Origin: Bacteroidaceae bacterium
GTDB taxonomy: Bacteria > Bacteroidota > Bacteroidia > Bacteroidales > Bacteroidaceae
Assembly (NCBI GenBank): GCA_017483665.1
Contig: JAFUVM010000027.1
Coordinates: 1 to 47,868, forward strand
Reading direction: 5' to 3'
DNA length: 47,868 nt
Below, in pieces: positions 11,799 to 42,870 of the stretch (the stretch's first letter is position 1; each line of letters starts with the position of its first letter). Below the pieces are notes generated by a model that was given only the letters and a program-made list of their open reading frames with translations, did no database searches and was not told the DNA's origin. The translations under genes were made by a program, and so were the position numbers.

Positions 11799-12572
11799 TC
11801 ACTTGATGTTGCCACGAATCTTAGTCAAGTAGGCATTCAGCGCCTCCTCGTCGCGGTTGTCGATAATCTGTATTAAGTCTTTCAGCTCGGAGCGAATGCC
11901 TTCGACGTGCGCCTTGGTGCGCGGGTTGAAGAGAATCTCGCGCAGCAGCGTGTCGTCCTCGCTCAGGACACCCTTCGCTATCTTCAGGTGTCGCTTGAAC
12001 GTCGTGCCGGGAGCGTCCTGATGCTTCATGACGGCCGAGAAGACGAAGGTGCTCACGAAGGGAACCGACAGGCTGTAGGCCATCGCTTCGTCGTGCTCGT
12101 CGAAGCTGTACTCGTGGACGTTCAGCCCGAGACGGCGGTAAAGGTCGAGGAAGAAGATGCGCCCCATGTAGTCACCCTCGTTGATGACGATGGCATTCTC
12201 CGTGGAGAGTGCCCCGAGGTTGGCAAACGTGGGACCGAACATCGGGTGCGTCGAGACGTAGCGCATCCCGGTTCCCTCGTAGAATTCTTTCAGCCCGGTC
12301 TTTACCGAAGCGATGTCCGAGATGATGCAGTCCGCGGGCAGGCAGGGGATGACCTGCTCGAAGACAGCAGTTGTGTACTTCAGTGTGACGGCATTGATAA
12401 CGAGCTCCGGGCGGAAATCGCGTATCTCGTCGAGCGTCGTGAAGCGCTGCGTGTTGTAGAGGAAGCGCATCCGGCGGGCGTCAATCTCGTAGACGGCGCA
12501 TTCATGGTCGAAGGAAAGGACGTCCGTGAAAAAGGAGCCCATCTTGCCTGCGCCAAGGATAAGTATTCTCAT
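11799..12572 (-). CDS. tyrA: Prephenate dehydrogenase
   Basis: Oxidises prephenate to 4-hydroxyphenylpyruvate with NAD(P)+, the Tyr branch. The 257-residue protein has an N-terminal Rossmann fold with GAGKMGSFF at residues 7-15 and the conserved STHPMFGPT with the catalytic-region His. A helical dimerisation domain forms the C-terminal half. It lacks the ACT or chorismate mutase part found in some TyrA proteins. It is the last gene of the aromatic operon. The stretch just before its ATG is AGGAGGGGTCTT, the end of an inverted repeat element that could act as a ribosome binding site. Confidence 0.93.
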   Translation of the reverse strand: MRILILGAGKMGSFFTDVLSFDHECAVYEIDARRMRFLYNTQRFTTLDEIRDFRPELVINAVTLKYTTAVFEQVIPCLPADCIISDIASVKTGLKEFYEGTGMRYVSTHPMFGPTFANLGALSTENAIVINEGDYMGRIFFLDLYRRLGLNVHEYSFDEHDEAMAYSLSVPFVSTFVFSAVMKHQDAPGTTFKRHLKIAKGVLSEDDTLLREILFNPRTKAHVEGIRSELKDLIQIIDNRDEEALNAYLTKIRGNIK

Positions 12573-12707
12573 AAGACCCCTCCTAACCTTCCCTTAAAGG
12601 GGAGGGAATCCCCTTGTGAGCAGTGTGTGTTGTTATACATAGATATTCGTTTTATGTCGCCCCCCTCCTTTCTCCCTCCCTTTAAGGGAGGGTTGGGGTG
12701 GGTCTTT
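12573..12707. repeat. Inverted CTCCC/GGGAGG element between aroG-type gene and tyrA
   Basis: The left arm (12573-12607) and right arm (12674-12707) are imperfect inverted copies beginning AAGACCC and holding CCCTTTAAGGGAGGG-type sequence. The right arm touches the stop codon of the upstream gene and the left arm touches the tyrA start codon, so the element fills the spacer inside the operon. A related element is at 47464-47563. Confidence 0.75.
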
Positions 12708-13770
12708 ACTTGTTAATAATCTCCATCTGTTGGCGGACGCTCTCTTCGTGGATGTGCTCGAAGATGTTCTTGATGCACTGTGTGTCGATGCCCAGCAGGG
12801 AGCCTTGTGCGCCACGCTTGTCCAAAATCTCGCTATAGCGGCGCGTCTGCACGATGGTCATGCCGCTTTCCTTCTTGTATTCGCCTATGCTTCGGCAAAT
12901 CTTCATGCGCTTTGCAAGCAGATCGATGAGCTCATTGTCGAGTTCGTCTATTTCGTGCCGGTAGTCCTTGAGTTTGTCGGGATGTTCCGAGGTGTCGCGG
13001 AAGACGAGGCGCGACACGATGAAGTCGAGCACTTCGGGCGTCACTTGCTGTGCTGCGTCGCTCCATGCCTTGTCGGGGTCGCAGTGGCTCTCTACGATGA
13101 GGCCATCGAAGCCGAGATCCATCGCCTCCTGGCAGAGCGAGGCAATCAGGTCGCGCCGGCCGCTGATGTGGCTCGGGTCGCACACGATGGGCAGCAGAGG
13201 CAGCCGACGCTTCAGCTCGATGGGAATCTGCCACATCGGGTCGTTGCGGTAAAGTTTCTTCTCGTAGCTGCTGAAGCCGCGGTGGATGGCGCCGAGTTTC
13301 TGTATGCCGGCACCGTTGATGCGCTCCAGTGCGCCTATCCACAGCTCGATGTCGGGGTTGACGGGGTTCTTGACGAGCACGGTCGTGTCGGTCCCTTTCA
13401 GGGCATCGGCCAGTTCCTGTACGGCGAAGGGGTTGGCCGTGGTGCGTGCACCTACCCAGAGGATGTCGACACCATACTTGAGGGCCAGCTCCACGTGCTT
13501 GGGAGTTGCCACTTCCGTGGCGGTGAGCATGCCCGTTTCCTTCTTGACGTTGACCAGCCAGGGCAGTGCGGGTTCGCCGTGACCTTCGAAGCCTCCGGGC
13601 TTGGTGCGCGGTTTCCATACTCCCGCACGGAAGATGTGGCAGCCTTTTCCGGCCAGCTGCTTGGCGGTGGTCATCACTTGTTCTTCTGTCTCGGCGCTGC
13701 ATGGACCGGCGATGATGAATGCTCGCTCTTGGTCGCTCGGCAGGTTCAGGGGTTGTAGTTGGAGTTCCAT
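12706..13770 (-). CDS. aroF: Bifunctional DAHP synthase / chorismate mutase
   Basis: Catalyses the first step of the shikimate pathway (PEP plus erythrose 4-phosphate to DAHP) and also chorismate to prephenate. Residues about 15-255 are a type I-beta DAHP synthase, seen in FIIAGPCSAETEEQVM, the Arg/Lys-rich RAGVWKPRTKPGGFEG and CDPSHISGRRDLI. Residues about 265-354 are an AroQ-type chorismate mutase (ELIDLLAKRMKICRSIGEYK). This fusion order is usual in Bacteroidetes; the name aroF/aroG-pheB varies. The mutase domain often mediates feedback on the synthase, but that is not shown here. It is third in the operon. Confidence 0.93.
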   Translation of the reverse strand: MELQLQPLNLPSDQERAFIIAGPCSAETEEQVMTTAKQLAGKGCHIFRAGVWKPRTKPGGFEGHGEPALPWLVNVKKETGMLTATEVATPKHVELALKYGVDILWVGARTTANPFAVQELADALKGTDTTVLVKNPVNPDIELWIGALERINGAGIQKLGAIHRGFSSYEKKLYRNDPMWQIPIELKRRLPLLPIVCDPSHISGRRDLIASLCQEAMDLGFDGLIVESHCDPDKAWSDAAQQVTPEVLDFIVSRLVFRDTSEHPDKLKDYRHEIDELDNELIDLLAKRMKICRSIGEYKKESGMTIVQTRRYSEILDKRGAQGSLLGIDTQCIKNIFEHIHEESVRQQMEIINK

Positions 13771-13796: not shown

Positions 13797-13917
13797 TGGT
13801 TAGGGGTGAGTGGTTAGGGGTTAGGGGTTAGAGGTTAGTGGTTAGAGGAATGTTTTTGGATGTTGATTAGGAGCCAGAGGTATTCTCTCACCTCTAACCT
13901 CTAACCACTAACCTCTT
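13797..13917. repeat. Inverted GGTTAGAGG word element, copy 1
   Basis: The left arm (about 13797-13848) is a run of 7-bp words GGTTAGN. The right arm (13891-13917) is their inverse. The core between them contains GAGGAATGT, GGATGTT and TATTCTCT. An exact 18-bp inverted pair is 13831-13848 with 13898-13915. The right arm runs into the aminotransferase gene and supplies its last four codons and stop. Confidence 0.85.
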
Positions 13918-15100
13918 TAAGTCTTTTGATGCGTCGGAGTGCTTCCTGCATCTTTTCCTCCTTGGCGCAGAGGCTGATGCGTATGTAGCGTTTGCCGTTC
14001 GAGCCGAAGATGAAGCCGGGTGTGATGAACACTCTTGCTTCGTGCAGCACGCGCTCCGTGAGTTCTTCCACGTCGGTGTAGCGGTCCGGGATGCGCCCCC
14101 AGAGGAACATGCCTGTCTGCTGCGGGTCGAACTGGCAGCCGAGGGCTTGCATAATCTCCTCTGCGTAGCGGCGGCGCGGCGTGTAGGTCTCTACGTTGGC
14201 CTGCCGGTGCCAGAGGTCGGTGTTGTCGTAGGCTTGTGCTGCGGCGAGCTGTAGGGCGCGGAAGGTCCCGCTGTCGATGTTCGACTTCACCTTCAGAATC
14301 CACTGTACGAACTGCGCGTTGGTGGCAAGCAGACCGACGCGCCAGCCGGGCATGTTGTGGCTTTTTGACATGGAGTTGAACTCGATGCAGCATTCTTTGG
14401 CCCGCGGCACCTGCAGGATGGAGATGCGTTCGCCTTGGCTCAGTATGAAGCTGTAGGGATTGTCGTTGACCACGATGATGCCGTGGCGCAGGGCAAAGTC
14501 GACGAGGCGTTCGTAGGTCTCGCGCCTGGCCTTTGCTCCGGTGGGCATGTTCGGATAGTTCGTCCAGAGGAGCTTGACGCGGCTCAGGTCCATCCGCTCG
14601 AGTGCGTCGAAGTCCGGCTGCCAGTTGTTCTCGGGCAGGAGGTCGTAGTTGACGATTTTGGCGCCGAGCAGTTTGGAGAGACTCGTGTAGGTGGGGTAGC
14701 CGGGGTTGGGGACGAGAACCTCGTCGCCGGGGTTGACGAAGGCGAGGGTGACGTGCAGGATGCCCTCTTTGCTGCCGATGAGGGGCTGAATCTCGGTGGC
14801 CGGGTCGAGCTCGACGCCGAACCATCTCCGATAGAAGCCTGCCATGGCCTGTCGCAGTTCGGGGATGCCAACGGTGGGCTGATAGCCGTGTGCCGTGGGG
14901 TTCTGTGCTTCGCGGCAGAGGGTCTCGATGGTTTCGGGCGAGGGCGGCATGTCGGGGCTTCCGATGGCAAGGCTGATGATGTCCTTTCCAGCGGCATTCA
15001 TGGCAGCCACTTCCTTCAGCTTTCGGCTGAAGTAGTACTCGCTGACGTCGGCAAGTCTGTCTGCCGGACGGATGCTAAATGCTTTGTCTTCCGTTTTCAT
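13901..15100 (-). CDS. PLP-dependent aminotransferase of the aromatic operon
   Basis: A class I/II fold-type I aminotransferase of 399 residues. In this operon it probably makes Phe and Tyr from phenylpyruvate and 4-hydroxyphenylpyruvate, although LL-diaminopimelate-type or broader substrates cannot be excluded. GYQPTVGIPELR is near residue 72, and the PLP-binding lysine is K246 in SMSKSHNMPGWRVG. The start chosen is ATG 15100 (MKTEDKAF), which overlaps the end of pheA by 26 bp and suggests translational coupling. The longer frame to 15145 lies wholly inside pheA. The last residues EVSG and the TAG stop are encoded by an inverted repeat element. Confidence 0.88.
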   Translation of the reverse strand: MKTEDKAFSIRPADRLADVSEYYFSRKLKEVAAMNAAGKDIISLAIGSPDMPPSPETIETLCREAQNPTAHGYQPTVGIPELRQAMAGFYRRWFGVELDPATEIQPLIGSKEGILHVTLAFVNPGDEVLVPNPGYPTYTSLSKLLGAKIVNYDLLPENNWQPDFDALERMDLSRVKLLWTNYPNMPTGAKARRETYERLVDFALRHGIIVVNDNPYSFILSQGERISILQVPRAKECCIEFNSMSKSHNMPGWRVGLLATNAQFVQWILKVKSNIDSGTFRALQLAAAQAYDNTDLWHRQANVETYTPRRRYAEEIMQALGCQFDPQQTGMFLWGRIPDRYTDVEELTERVLHEARVFITPGFIFGSNGKRYIRISLCAKEEKMQEALRRIKRLKEVSG

Positions 15101-15926
15101 ATGTGCCAAGTTGTTTGAGTTCGCGTGTGAGGGGGGTGATGGCATTGAGGGCCTGGCGGTAGCGCTTCTCGTCGGCGAAGGAGAGGTCGATGTAGAACAT
15201 GTACTGCCACTCCTGTCCGATGATGGGCAGACTCTGTATCTTTGTCAGGTTGAGCTTATAGAAAGAGAGCACGGAGAGTATGGCGCTGAGGCTGCCTTCC
15301 TCGTGGGGCAGGGTGAAGACGAGGCTGGCCTTGTTGATGATGCCGCGGCTTCGGATGGCGGTTGCTTTCTCGGGGTGGGCCAGGACGAGGAAGCGCGTGA
15401 AGTTGTGCTTGTTCGTCTCTATGCCTTCCTGCAGCACCTTCATGCCGTAGATGCGGGCTGCATCGCGGTGGCAGATGGCGGCGTGTCCGTGCCTCTGCTC
15501 GCGGCTGATGTCGGCGGCGGCGCCTGCGGTGTCGGCCACTTCCACCACCTTCAGCCCTGGATGGCGGGAGAGAAAGTTGCGGCACTGCATGAGTGCCACG
15601 GGGTGTGAGTTCACTTCGCGGAGGTCCTCCCAGTCTTCGTCGGGCAGGCACATGATGCTGTGGCTGATGCGCAGCTTGTGTTCGCCCACGATGGTCATGC
15701 CGCTGTCGCGCAGCAGTTCGTAGTTGTGGAGCAGGCTTCCGGCAATGGTGTTCTCGATGGCAACGACAGCCACTGTGTCGTGGTCGTCGTGGAGGCTGCT
15801 GAAGACCTGCTCGAAGGTGTCGCAGCAGACCAGCTCCACCTGTTCGTCCTCGAAGTAGCGGTGGGCGGCGATGTCGTGGAAGCTGCCCTTGATGCCCTGT
15901 ATTGCTATCCGTCTAACTTTAGTCAT
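15075..15926 (-). CDS. pheA: Prephenate dehydratase
   Basis: Converts prephenate to phenylpyruvate, the Phe branch. The start at ATG 15926 (MTKVRRIAIQG) is preferred; the longer frame begins at a TTG at 15965. The protein has 283 residues. The dehydratase domain (about 5-185) has AIENTIAGSL and ETNKHNFTRF, the latter holding the catalytic Thr-Arg-Phe motif. A C-terminal ACT domain (about 195-275) has KASLVFTLPHEEGSL, but the usual ESRP Phe-binding motif reads QSLP. It is the first gene of the aromatic operon, after the leader attenuator and a 22-bp repeat array. Confidence 0.94.
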   Translation of the reverse strand: MTKVRRIAIQGIKGSFHDIAAHRYFEDEQVELVCCDTFEQVFSSLHDDHDTVAVVAIENTIAGSLLHNYELLRDSGMTIVGEHKLRISHSIMCLPDEDWEDLREVNSHPVALMQCRNFLSRHPGLKVVEVADTAGAAADISREQRHGHAAICHRDAARIYGMKVLQEGIETNKHNFTRFLVLAHPEKATAIRSRGIINKASLVFTLPHEEGSLSAILSVLSFYKLNLTKIQSLPIIGQEWQYMFYIDLSFADEKRYRQALNAITPLTRELKQLGTYENGRQSI

Positions 15927-15993: not shown

Positions 15994-16081
15994 TCCGGAA
16001 AACACGGCGTGCTCTTATGGCCAACACGGCGTGCTCTTATGGAATAAGCGCCGTGCTCTTCCTAAATAAGCGCGTGGCGTG
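15994..16081. repeat. 22-bp palindromic repeat array B
   Basis: About three and a half units in the pheA leader region, downstream of the attenuator terminator. Examples are ccaacacggcgtgctcttat plus gg (22 bp) and aataagcgccgtgctcttcc plus ta (22 bp). Both orientations of the unit seem to be present. It would be transcribed in the pheA mRNA 5' region whenever the attenuator is read through. Confidence 0.75.
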
Positions 16082-16164: not shown

Positions 16165-16197
16165 ATGAAAAATCCCGCTTCACTGGGTGAGCGGGAT
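16165..16197 (-). terminator. Attenuator terminator of the aromatic operon
   Basis: On the minus strand AUCCCGCUCACCC (16197-16185) pairs with AGUGAAGCGGGAU (16184-16172). The stem has 8 bp plus 3 bp around one bulged A, with a CCA loop, and a run of five U follows. It is an intrinsic terminator 240 bases before pheA and 60 bases after the leader peptide. Its 3' arm is repeated at 16247-16257, beside the leader stop codon. Confidence 0.88.
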
Positions 16198-16244
16198 GCT
16201 TCTGTATGTAATGTTTCCTTTATTCCTTATTTATATATATAGAC

Positions 16245-16257
16245 AACCCGCTTCACT
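16245..16257 (-). promoter_or_regulatory. Antiterminator segment (region 2) of the attenuator
   Basis: AGUGAAGCGGG at 16257-16247 is an exact 11-base copy of the terminator's 3' arm (16184-16174), so it can pair with the terminator's 5' arm (16197-16187) instead. It begins on the base after the leader TGA. A ribosome that reaches the stop codon would cover it, and one stalled on the earlier Tyr/Phe codons would leave it free. Confidence 0.82.
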
Positions 16258-16314
16258 TCATTTGCTAAAGTAAAAGTAATAGTAAAAACCGAAGTAGAGG
16301 TTGTAGTTCTTCAT
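16258..16314 (-). CDS. Phe/Tyr-rich leader peptide of the aromatic operon
   Basis: An 18-codon frame, MKNYNLYFGFYYYFYFSK, starts at ATG 16314 and ends with TGA 16260-16258. Six residues are Tyr and four are Phe, with seven aromatic codons in a row (residues 10-16). It starts about 20 bases below a canonical promoter and lies directly before two competing hairpin segments. By analogy with the pheA and trp leaders of enterobacteria, its translation would sense charged tRNA-Phe and tRNA-Tyr and set read-through into pheA-tyrA. The composition and position are seen in the sequence; the mechanism is inferred. Confidence 0.88.
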   Translation of the reverse strand: MKNYNLYFGFYYYFYFSK

Positions 16315-16334
16315 TGTTCTGTCTTTTTCGTCTG

Positions 16335-16365
16335 CAAAGGTAGGTCTTTTCTTTCTTTCTGCCAA
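16335..16365 (-). promoter_or_regulatory. Promoter of the aromatic amino acid operon
   Basis: Minus-strand TTG (16363-16365), 20 bases, TACCTTTG (16335-16342). Transcription would begin near 16325-16330, only 10-16 bases before the leader peptide ATG. It lies between the transporter stop and the leader. Confidence 0.85.
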
Positions 16366-16415: not shown

Positions 16416-17384
16416 CTAAATGTCTTTCTCCTGTGCGCCGTCGTGCCGTGCTTTTCTGTACAGTTGCCAGGAGTTGTAGACGTTGTGCCAGATGCTGTAG
16501 AAGCCGCCGGCCAGAGCCGTGAGCGGATGCAGGAAGGTGTAGCCCACCCAGATGGCAAGGATGGTGTTCTTCTGTCCGCACGCCTGGGCCGCGCTGATGT
16601 CGTCGCCGTAATGCCGCCCCGCCATTCGGCCTGCGGCAAATTGTACGGCACAGGCCACGACAGAGCCCAACGCAATGACGAGGCACGCCGAGAGCGTCAC
16701 GTCGGCATGCACGATGATGCGGGTGGTGACGGCGATGGCCAGCGAGAGCGACACCGTCCAGATGTAGAAGGGCAGGTCGGGGACGGTCGTGAGCACACGC
16801 AGCAGCCCCGGGAAGGCATGCCGGATGAAGAAGGCGACCAACAACGGGAAGATGAGCAACGGAAAGACGCGGCAGACGATGAGGCGGAAGGAGAGCCAGA
16901 AGCTCATGTCCTCCGCAGGGTTGACCAGCGGGATGAGTGCCGGGAAGAGCAGCGCGGCACAGAGGTTGACGAGCAGCGTGTAGGCTGTCAGCGTGCCGGC
17001 GTTGCCGCCCAGCTTCGTCGTGACGACAGCGGCAGCCGTGGCCGTCGGGCACAGGAAACAGAGCATGGCGCTCTGCAGGAGGAGGCGGGCCGTCTCGTCG
17101 TGCATGAACCCGTGCAGCAGGCAGAGGAGCACGGCGGTGCCTGCCTGGAGCAACAGCAGCCAGCCCTGCCAGCCGCGCAGCCGCATGTCGCTGGGACGGA
17201 TGCGGCAGAAGGTGAGCGTCAGCATGCAGAAGATAAGCGCGGGCTGCACGTACGAAATGCTCTCGCGTATCTGCTCCCGCAGCATCGGCGCAAGGGGCAG
17301 ACTGCGGCAGACAAAATAGCCCAGCGCACCCGTCACCATGCTCAGCGGCAGAGCCCAATCCTTGACAAATCTCTTCGCTTTCAT
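16416..17384 (-). CDS. BASS-family (bile acid:sodium symporter-like) transporter
   Basis: A 322-residue inner-membrane protein with about nine to ten hydrophobic segments. Family-like features are CPTATAAAVVTTKLGGN (about 112-128), in the position of the conserved substrate/Na+ region, and AQACGQKNTILAIWVGY near residue 270, which matches the second conserved motif of bile acid:Na+ symporter-like transporters. The natural substrate is unknown; many bacterial members carry organic acids rather than bile acids. A possible -7 element, TAATTTTG, is at 17410-17417. It diverges from the gene at 17522. Confidence 0.8.
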   Translation of the reverse strand: MKAKRFVKDWALPLSMVTGALGYFVCRSLPLAPMLREQIRESISYVQPALIFCMLTLTFCRIRPSDMRLRGWQGWLLLLQAGTAVLLCLLHGFMHDETARLLLQSAMLCFLCPTATAAAVVTTKLGGNAGTLTAYTLLVNLCAALLFPALIPLVNPAEDMSFWLSFRLIVCRVFPLLIFPLLVAFFIRHAFPGLLRVLTTVPDLPFYIWTVSLSLAIAVTTRIIVHADVTLSACLVIALGSVVACAVQFAAGRMAGRHYGDDISAAQACGQKNTILAIWVGYTFLHPLTALAGGFYSIWHNVYNSWQLYRKARHDGAQEKDI

Positions 17385-42575: not shown

Positions 42576-42606
42576 TTGGCAGATTGAAGAAAAGTTCATA
42601 CCTTTG
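42576..42606 (+). promoter_or_regulatory. Promoter of the tRNA-Lys pair (and probably aspS)
   Basis: TTG (42576-42578), 20 bases, TACCTTTG (42599-42606), 24 bases before the first tRNA. No other promoter is seen before aspS. Confidence 0.82.
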
Positions 42607-42629: not shown

Positions 42630-42702
42630 GCGTCCTTAGCTCAGTTGGTAGAGCAATTGACTCTTAATCAATGGGTCCAGGGTTCGAGCCCCTGAGGGCG
42701 TA
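42630..42702 (+). tRNA. tRNA-Lys(CTT), copy 1
   Basis: A full cloverleaf: acceptor GCGTCCT/AGGGCGT, D stem GCTC/GAGC, anticodon stem ATTGA/TCAAT with loop CTCTTAA (anticodon CTT), and T arm CAGGG-TTCGAGC-CCCTG. The first acceptor pair would be G-U. CCA is not encoded; the gene is followed by CAGAGAAGG. Confidence 0.95.
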
Positions 42703-42724
42703 CAGAGAAGGAAGAGTTTTGCAT

Positions 42725-42797
42725 GCGTCCTTAGCTCAGTTGGTAGAGCAATTGACTCTTAATCAATGGGTCCAGGGTTCGAGCCCCTGAGGGCGTA
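42725..42797 (+). tRNA. tRNA-Lys(CTT), copy 2
   Basis: Identical to the copy 95 bases upstream, including three bases before it (CAT) and two after it (CA), so it arose by recent tandem duplication or is kept identical by gene conversion. CCA is not encoded. Confidence 0.95.
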
Positions 42798-42870
42798 CAA
42801 GGAAGAAGGATGAGCTGGATAACGGTTCATCCTTTTCCTTTAGCAAAGGAGCACCCCAGCAGGGGACAGA

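Follow-up and report, generated by a model that had tools for sequence, protein, structure and literature searches.

What is the function of the short reading frame, crowded with phenylalanine and tyrosine codons, that lies between a promoter and a terminator upstream of pheA in a Bacteroidaceae bacterium? We examined it in the window (the whole stretch of 47,868 nucleotides analysed here), taking up an earlier note, made from the letters alone, that had read the region as a leader-peptide attenuator. Comparison with relatives makes us highly confident in predicting a ribosome-mediated transcription attenuator that would sense charged tRNA-Phe and tRNA-Tyr and control the Phe/Tyr biosynthesis operon.

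All parts of the element lie on the minus strand. The promoter is of the Bacteroidetes type (16335..16365), with TTGGCA at 16365-16360 followed after 17 bases by the -7 box TACCTTTG (16342-16335). The leader ORF, MKNYNLYFGFYYYFYFSK (16258..16314), begins with an ATG at 16314, 20 nt downstream of the -7 box and without an evident Shine-Dalgarno sequence, and ends in a TGA stop codon (16260-16258); its 18 codons include six for Tyr and four for Phe, and it is kept in relatives. A first copy of AGTGAAGCGGG (16257-16247) stands immediately 3' of the stop codon. It is separated by an A+T-rich spacer from a terminator hairpin whose 3' arm holds the second copy (16184-16174), followed by five T (16172-16168). 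Segment 1 (TTTTACTTTA, 16266..16275) is the end of the aromatic codon run and has segment 2 as its partner in the predicted fold, a possible third helix (1:2) overlapping the end of the ORF. Segment 2 (TGA plus AGTGAAGCGGG, 16247..16260) can pair with either segment 1 or segment 3, and segment 3 (ATCCCGCTCACC, 16186..16197), the 5' arm of the terminator, with either segment 2 or segment 4. Segment 4 (AGTGAAGCGGGAT, 16184-16172) and the five-T tail complete the intrinsic terminator (16168..16184). The promoter, the ORF with its ten aromatic residues and the post-stop segment had been placed correctly to the base in the earlier note, and the repeat of 11 bases in the 3' arm and the five-U end that it had claimed for the terminator are both present in the sequence.

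About 240 nt separate the terminator from the probable ATG of pheA at 15926. The four genes of the operon, also on the minus strand, encode prephenate dehydratase (pheA, 15075..15926; Pfam PF00800, E 3.6e-58), a class I/II aminotransferase (13901..15145, its true start probably nearer 15100; PF00155, E 1e-63), a DAHP synthase fused to chorismate mutase (12706..13770; PF00793 and PF01817) and prephenate dehydrogenase (tyrA, 11799..12572; PF02153, E 1.3e-8, with the NCBIfam prephenate dehydrogenase models matching below their cut-offs). The stretch between terminator and pheA contains genome-wide repeats: two copies of AAGAGCACGCCGTGTT (16001..16038, minus strand), a sequence found at 27 places in the same genome with at most one mismatch and at none for the reversed control, are probably not part of the switch. 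By eye, other repeated sequences lie near the same leader in relatives L003, L005, L009 and L020. The gene upstream of the leader (16416-17384, minus strand) resembles the SBF bile-acid/sodium symporter family, at 20.5 bits against a Pfam cut-off of 24.3.

Only 3 of 200 dinucleotide shuffles fold as well as the region from 16330 to 16165, and the Phe+Tyr fraction of the ORF (0.56) is the highest among the 655 ATG-started ORFs of 10-40 codons in the window, the runner-up reaching 0.32. A bare seven-codon Phe/Tyr run was rejected as evidence, being not rare (nine pattern matches in the genome versus five for the reversed control). The significance lies in the combination of features and in their conservation, not in the run.

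Conservation was assessed at pheA loci drawn from relatives in the genus, family, order, class and phylum, and at 80 named loci from a second collection that includes Phocaeicola vulgatus ATCC 8482, Bacteroides fragilis and Xylanibacter ruminicola. The loci are a part of the matches, at most 30 being taken from each search (in the family, for example, 220 of 251 genomes matched, more than were retrieved; from outside the class the sample is 11 loci), and the counts leave out genomes without a pheA match (16/61, 31/251 and 85/119 in three searched sets). Two of the 226 loci examined were dropped because their upstream sequence was too short, and 224 were scored for a frame upstream of pheA with a start codon and at least six, or at least seven, aromatic codons in ten. 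The lower threshold was reached at 201/224 loci versus 25/1120 dinucleotide shuffles and the higher at 196/224 versus 2/1120. Among the fetched loci, a leader precedes pheA in 174/178 from Bacteroidales, 25/35 from other orders of the class and 2/11 from outside the class but within the phylum. It is missing from four of the 178 Bacteroidales loci (L002 and L147, which are one locus, L020 and L174) and from ten of the 35 in other orders of the class. The loci are not independent, since some genomes occur twice (e.g. L002/L147) and many are close relatives; 189 of the 201 leaders are distinct. The N-terminal sequence and the length of the peptide vary widely.

Tandem leaders, with two separate aromatic ORFs upstream of pheA, were seen at 15 of 108 loci. 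Setting aside L078, L083 and L318, where the first ORF looks like a chance occurrence, leaves 12 (L089, L290-L293, L306, L307, L327, L330, L332, L354 and L357); in L290-L293, each ORF appears by eye to have its own terminator.

A TAnnTTTG site, which we take to be the promoter type of the phylum Bacteroidetes, was found by a scan at a usable distance from the leader start in 164 of the 189 distinct leaders (median 26.5 nt; 25 without a site). In the window, the arrangement of TAnnTTTG, 20 nt and then ATG is present twice, against 0.21 expected. A sigma-70 promoter scan found no promoter, and a terminator scan run alongside it reported the stem for the plus strand alone. The start codon of the 164 leaders is ATG in 159 and GTG in five; an SD-like 4-mer is present in only four, and A occupies position -3 in 98. 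Judged from these sequences, the leader is apparently translated without Shine-Dalgarno pairing, in a phylum that mostly initiates without it. Elsewhere in the window, two adjacent tRNA-Lys(CTT) genes (42630-42798) follow a TACCTTTG promoter-like site whose end is at 42606.

The two competing helices are widely kept. A search maximising pairing, which has no control of its own, gave at least six of seven pairs in both the 2:3 and the 3:4 7-mers in 177 of the 189 distinct leaders; the terminator finder failed in 8 of the 189 and four more had 5/7 pairs in 2:3 (the earlier terminator finder failed for 8 loci). When the terminator was chosen by 3:4 pairing alone, it was found in 173/189 (16 failures), a count that retains several wrong or partial hairpins (e.g. 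L031, L040, L063, L093, L158, L191 and L224). Of 146 Bacteroidales leaders, 135 have a 2:3 duplex that outdoes 95 or more of 100 shuffles, as do 16 of the 27 others. In the most stringent test, on the 61 leaders without CCCGC in segment 3, the leader's own 2:3 duplex averages -14.2 kcal/mol versus -9.1 (sd 0.41) with permuted arms, and none of 5000 permutations was as good. Segments 2, 3 and 4 change jointly, as illustrated by ACCGGGA/TCCCGGT/ACCGGGA, GAGGCTT/AAGCCTC/GAGGCTT and GAAGCAG/CTGCTTC/GAAGCAG.

Covariation was measured in alignment A2, 42 sequences hand-picked for diversity from the 189. Helix 3:4 has 94.9% of its cells paired and 29 double-change cells versus 11.0 in shuffles; helix 2:3 has 90.8% paired and 19 versus 5.8. 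Changes on both sides affect six of the nine pairs of 3:4 and six of the eight of 2:3, above shuffles and slides; on one of five measures, the number of pair types, 2:3 does not exceed shuffles (125/500). Helix 1:2 has 91.8% of its cells paired and five double-change cells versus 2.1; its covariation score was reached by 11/500 shuffles, and it beats 95% of shuffles in 61 of 162 leaders. Its support is weaker than that of 2:3 and 3:4, and its modest covariation is only suggestive. Little sequence is conserved across the alignment in the spacer that joins segments 2 and 3. The earlier note had claimed that 2:3 and 3:4 are mutually exclusive and had proposed to align the leaders upstream of pheA, naming the absence of a conserved ORF or of covariation as grounds against its reading. 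We carried out this comparison, in which the aromatic-rich ORF proved to be conserved and both helices to co-vary, 1:2 less clearly.

A covariance model of the leader, R1, was rejected as a census tool: it matched 58 of 197 genomes of the order, false matches included. Two of its weak matches, L304 and L333, prove to be plain terminators with no aromatic genes in the neighbourhood, which is what makes it poor for this purpose; L300 and L317 are matches at contig ends or in short stretches.

The position of segment 2 is also constrained. In 100 of 153 leaders its best-pairing 7-mer begins 13 or 14 nt past the final codon of the aromatic run. Given the size of the ribosome footprint, a ribosome stalled on that codon would have its front edge at about this point.

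Selection on the ORF itself was examined in 162 Bacteroidales leaders by counting codons back from the end of the aromatic run. The last three hardly deviate from TTT TAC TTT, third base included (150, 154 and 154 of 162), and the run end YFYF is kept in 147, 148, 149 and 154. The fourth codon is Tyr in 147/162, with C as third base in 123, and the fifth is Phe/Tyr in 94/61, with third base mostly T (139). Further back there is switching: the sixth and seventh codons are Phe/Tyr in 57/63 and 83/65, with third base T/C in 89/64 and 67/92, and the eighth is non-aromatic in 53/162. Such switching is as predicted if selection acts on the encoded residues, and near-fixed last codons are as expected if they also form strand 1 of an RNA switch. 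Outside Bacteroidales (27 leaders) the fixed pattern is lost, while most positions are still Phe or Tyr. The end of the stop codon falls 9-15 nt past the run in 51 of the 162 leaders, 18-24 nt in six and 27-57 nt in 105.

We scored run codons and genes at 110 leader loci with longer downstream sequence, taking the longest run with gaps of at most four residues (Tyr codons beyond it, in the tails of L296 and L397, are uncounted). A gene was counted if it lay in the retrieved sequence on the leader's strand, whether or not the two share one transcript. Outside the 110 are L085 (contig end), L294 (tyrA unrecognised), L339, L367 and L368, scored without a leader, and L300, L304, L317 and L333, without any of the genes. 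Every one of the 100 leaders before pheA with DAHP synthase and/or tyrA has at least two Phe and at least two Tyr codons (Tyr share 0.25-0.67); three further loci were scored as pheA plus aminotransferase only. The two lone-pheA leaders among the 110 have seven and nine Phe and zero Tyr within the run, and a third, L397 from a sister genome of one of these, has a run that is also Phe-only (about 1.5 kb was seen past its pheA). At the pooled frequency of 0.562, 16 Phe out of 16 has a chance of about 1e-4, for only two independent lineages. The five pheA-less operons among the 110 have a Tyr share of 0.56-0.67, and a sixth, in genome G054 (tyrA, DAHP synthase and more genes), has a leader of six Tyr and four Phe counted from the promoter-proximal ATG.

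The split operons of G054 (L078, L294) and G532 (L295, L296) have a leader for each part, with a Phe-only run before pheA and a Tyr majority before tyrA/DAHP synthase, whereas all 17 pheA loci of the relatives in the G054 family (L375-L391, 16 genomes) have mixed leaders. The prediction that a genome with a pheA-less tyrA operon carries a Phe-only pheA leader elsewhere held in G054 and G532, and the pheA leader of a sister genome, G719, is also Phe-only. As a general rule the prediction failed: seven split pheA genes, in G606, G637 and five more genomes of the G532 family (L392-L396), are leaderless. G582 and G645 have no pheA match, yet their pheA-less leaders retain Phe codons. Taken together, the comparisons indicate that codon identity tracks the genes downstream and matches the products of the operon, which lends the attenuator reading a kind of support that the earlier note had not anticipated.

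We propose the following mechanism. The sequences show its parts, how these are conserved, the joint changes in the competing helices and the match of codons to downstream genes; where transcription begins, that the ORF is translated, that ribosomes stall and polymerase reads through, and that charged tRNA is the signal are what we infer. RNA polymerase probably starts less than 20 nt upstream of the leader ORF, and a ribosome would load without Shine-Dalgarno pairing. When Phe or Tyr is short, the ribosome would stall within the aromatic run and leave segment 2 free to pair with segment 3 before segment 4 is synthesized; the terminator would not form and the operon would be transcribed. When both are plentiful, the ribosome would reach the stop codon and, in the window leader, cover segment 2; where the ORF runs past segment 2, this may refold with segment 1 behind the ribosome. 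With segment 2 sequestered, 3:4 would form and transcription would terminate.

To explore this scheme, we folded the leaders with the bases under a ribosome masked, its footprint being roughly set at 15 nt behind the A site and 12 nt from it onwards. In the window leader, transcribed as far as segment 3, helix 2:3 has a probability of 0.84 when no ribosome is present; a stalled ribosome gives 0.81-0.84 and one at the stop codon 0.01. The corresponding means for 153 leaders are 0.63, 0.89-0.91 and 0.30. Since 2:3 is already this probable without a ribosome, helix 1:2 protects little in the window leader. In 71 of the 153, 2:3 gains more than 0.1 from stalling relative to the ribosome-free state, and in 113 it does so relative to a ribosome at the stop. 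With a rough footprint, a ribosome at the stop overlaps segment 2 by at least 3 nt in 97/153. Where the stop lies past segment 2 (99/153), it leaves the mean 2:3 probability at 0.47, and in these leaders helix 1:2 re-forming behind the ribosome presumably contributes to the block. With segment 4 added to the transcript, the terminator wins in every state (2:3 about 0 in the window leader and on average at most 0.15 in the 153), so anti-termination must be kinetic, occurring while segment 4 is unmade.

A switchable terminator in front of a biosynthesis operon could in principle be controlled by a metabolite- or tRNA-binding RNA (a riboswitch or T-box), with the ORF as an incidental U-rich sequence; near fixation of the last three aromatic codons at the nucleotide level is what such an RNA constraint would give. 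The codons before them vary as Phe/Tyr codons with T or C in the third base, codon identity tracks the downstream genes and the 2-3 spacer shows little conservation, all of which speak against it. Nor is there a T-box or riboswitch among the Rfam matches: at gathering score, the window contains two tRNAs only, and at a permissive threshold the leader has four sub-threshold matches up to E 10, none from such a family. Rfam Trp_leader (RF00513) scores 15.1 bits versus 41 needed, and Thr_leader (RF00506) 18.6 versus 55. We regard control by a riboswitch or T-box as very improbable.

The strongly kept YFYF run end within Bacteroidales might instead reflect stalling by the nascent leader peptide itself, not a readout of tRNA charging. 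The last three codons are nearly fixed at their synonymous positions too, something that peptide arrest would not require; the motif is lost in the 27 leaders outside the order while Phe/Tyr content is mostly retained, and stand-alone pheA leaders are Phe-only within the run. We give this explanation hardly any credence. The same holds for a plain terminator governed by a TRAP- or TyrR-like protein, with an ORF that aids translation or encodes a small hydrophobic protein. Such regulators and small proteins exist in general, but the N-terminal sequence and length of this peptide vary widely, segment 2 stays complementary to segment 3 through changes, and its 7-mer keeps its 13 or 14 nt spacing in 100 of the 153 leaders; neither a plain terminator nor a small protein needs that complementarity or that spacing.

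Leader-peptide attenuators are familiar from enterobacteria (E. coli pheA/pheL, pheST, trp, his, thr and ilv), and those of thr and ilv respond to more than one amino acid. The Phe/Tyr leader resembles them in its short ORF of cognate codons, its mutually exclusive helices, its intrinsic terminator and the cognate amino-acid operon that follows. It differs in the phylum, in using Phe and Tyr codons together, in lacking a Shine-Dalgarno sequence, in preceding pheA, DAHP synthase and tyrA in one operon, and in a stop codon near or past segment 2. Vitreschak et al. reportedly described some attenuators in Bacteroidetes/Chlorobi in 2004.

For Flavobacterium psychrophilum, strong clues have been presented that leader-peptide attenuators precede amino-acid operons, together with a pheA 5' element that has no Rfam hit and is common to other Flavobacteriaceae genera (PMC9723704). 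This element shares phylum and gene with the Bacteroidales leader; the portions of that paper available to us describe it without sequence, codon content, helices or distribution beyond Flavobacteriaceae. We consider the two probably the same ancestral element. The earlier note knew of no described attenuator for a combined Phe-plus-Tyr operon in Bacteroidales, and we found none among the papers listed in searches of the open-licence literature, supplements aside; in the phylum, leader-peptide attenuation has a precedent in these flavobacterial clues and pheA element. From the available text of PMC8632094, the uORFC-13-1 motif of Acholeplasma aroF (24 representatives) is alike in placing a uORF with Phe codons before a terminator and a DAHP synthase gene, and different in phylum and in requiring at least one Phe codon only. 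Short ORFs reminiscent of leader peptides, such as BT_4401, are mentioned for B. thetaiotaomicron in the part of PMC7366714 available to us, and leader genes are treated generally in the accessible part of PMC4833913. All in all, the Phe/Tyr attenuator is very probably classical by design and new in being bispecific, spread through Bacteroidia and without an Rfam family.

Two other amino-acid systems were noted in passing. His-rich short ORFs (e.g. MRFYSRHRVHHHHHHLSG) lie upstream of hisG at five of 17 loci (L260, L262, L265, L273 and L276), with weaker matches at L264 and L268 and none in the genome of the window (L270); the sequences suggest His attenuators that are absent in part of the genus. 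Bacteroid-trp (RF01692), linked by its name to trp genes, was found neither at gathering score in the window nor among the four leader matches up to E 10. Under strict filters, it occurs in 3 of 61 genomes (two over the cut-off) and in none of the 37 of the same genus, the genome of the window included. It is listed among the cis-regulatory RNAs of Bacteroidetes in the available part of PMC2864571.

We lean towards a single ancestral aromatic attenuator that was kept through Bacteroidia, re-tuned in its codons when genes departed (to Phe-only for a lone pheA and to a Tyr majority where an operon has tyrA/DAHP synthase but no pheA) and, in some lineages, doubled into tandem copies. The split operons would be natural codon-swap experiments. 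If the attenuator operates as proposed, it needs a ribosome close behind RNA polymerase, and its conservation would therefore imply tight coupling of transcription and translation; where Shine-Dalgarno pairing is little used, the attenuator makes such coupling directly testable. For the class that holds Bacteroides, Phocaeicola and Prevotella, common gut bacteria among them, this would amount to a general Phe/Tyr switch.
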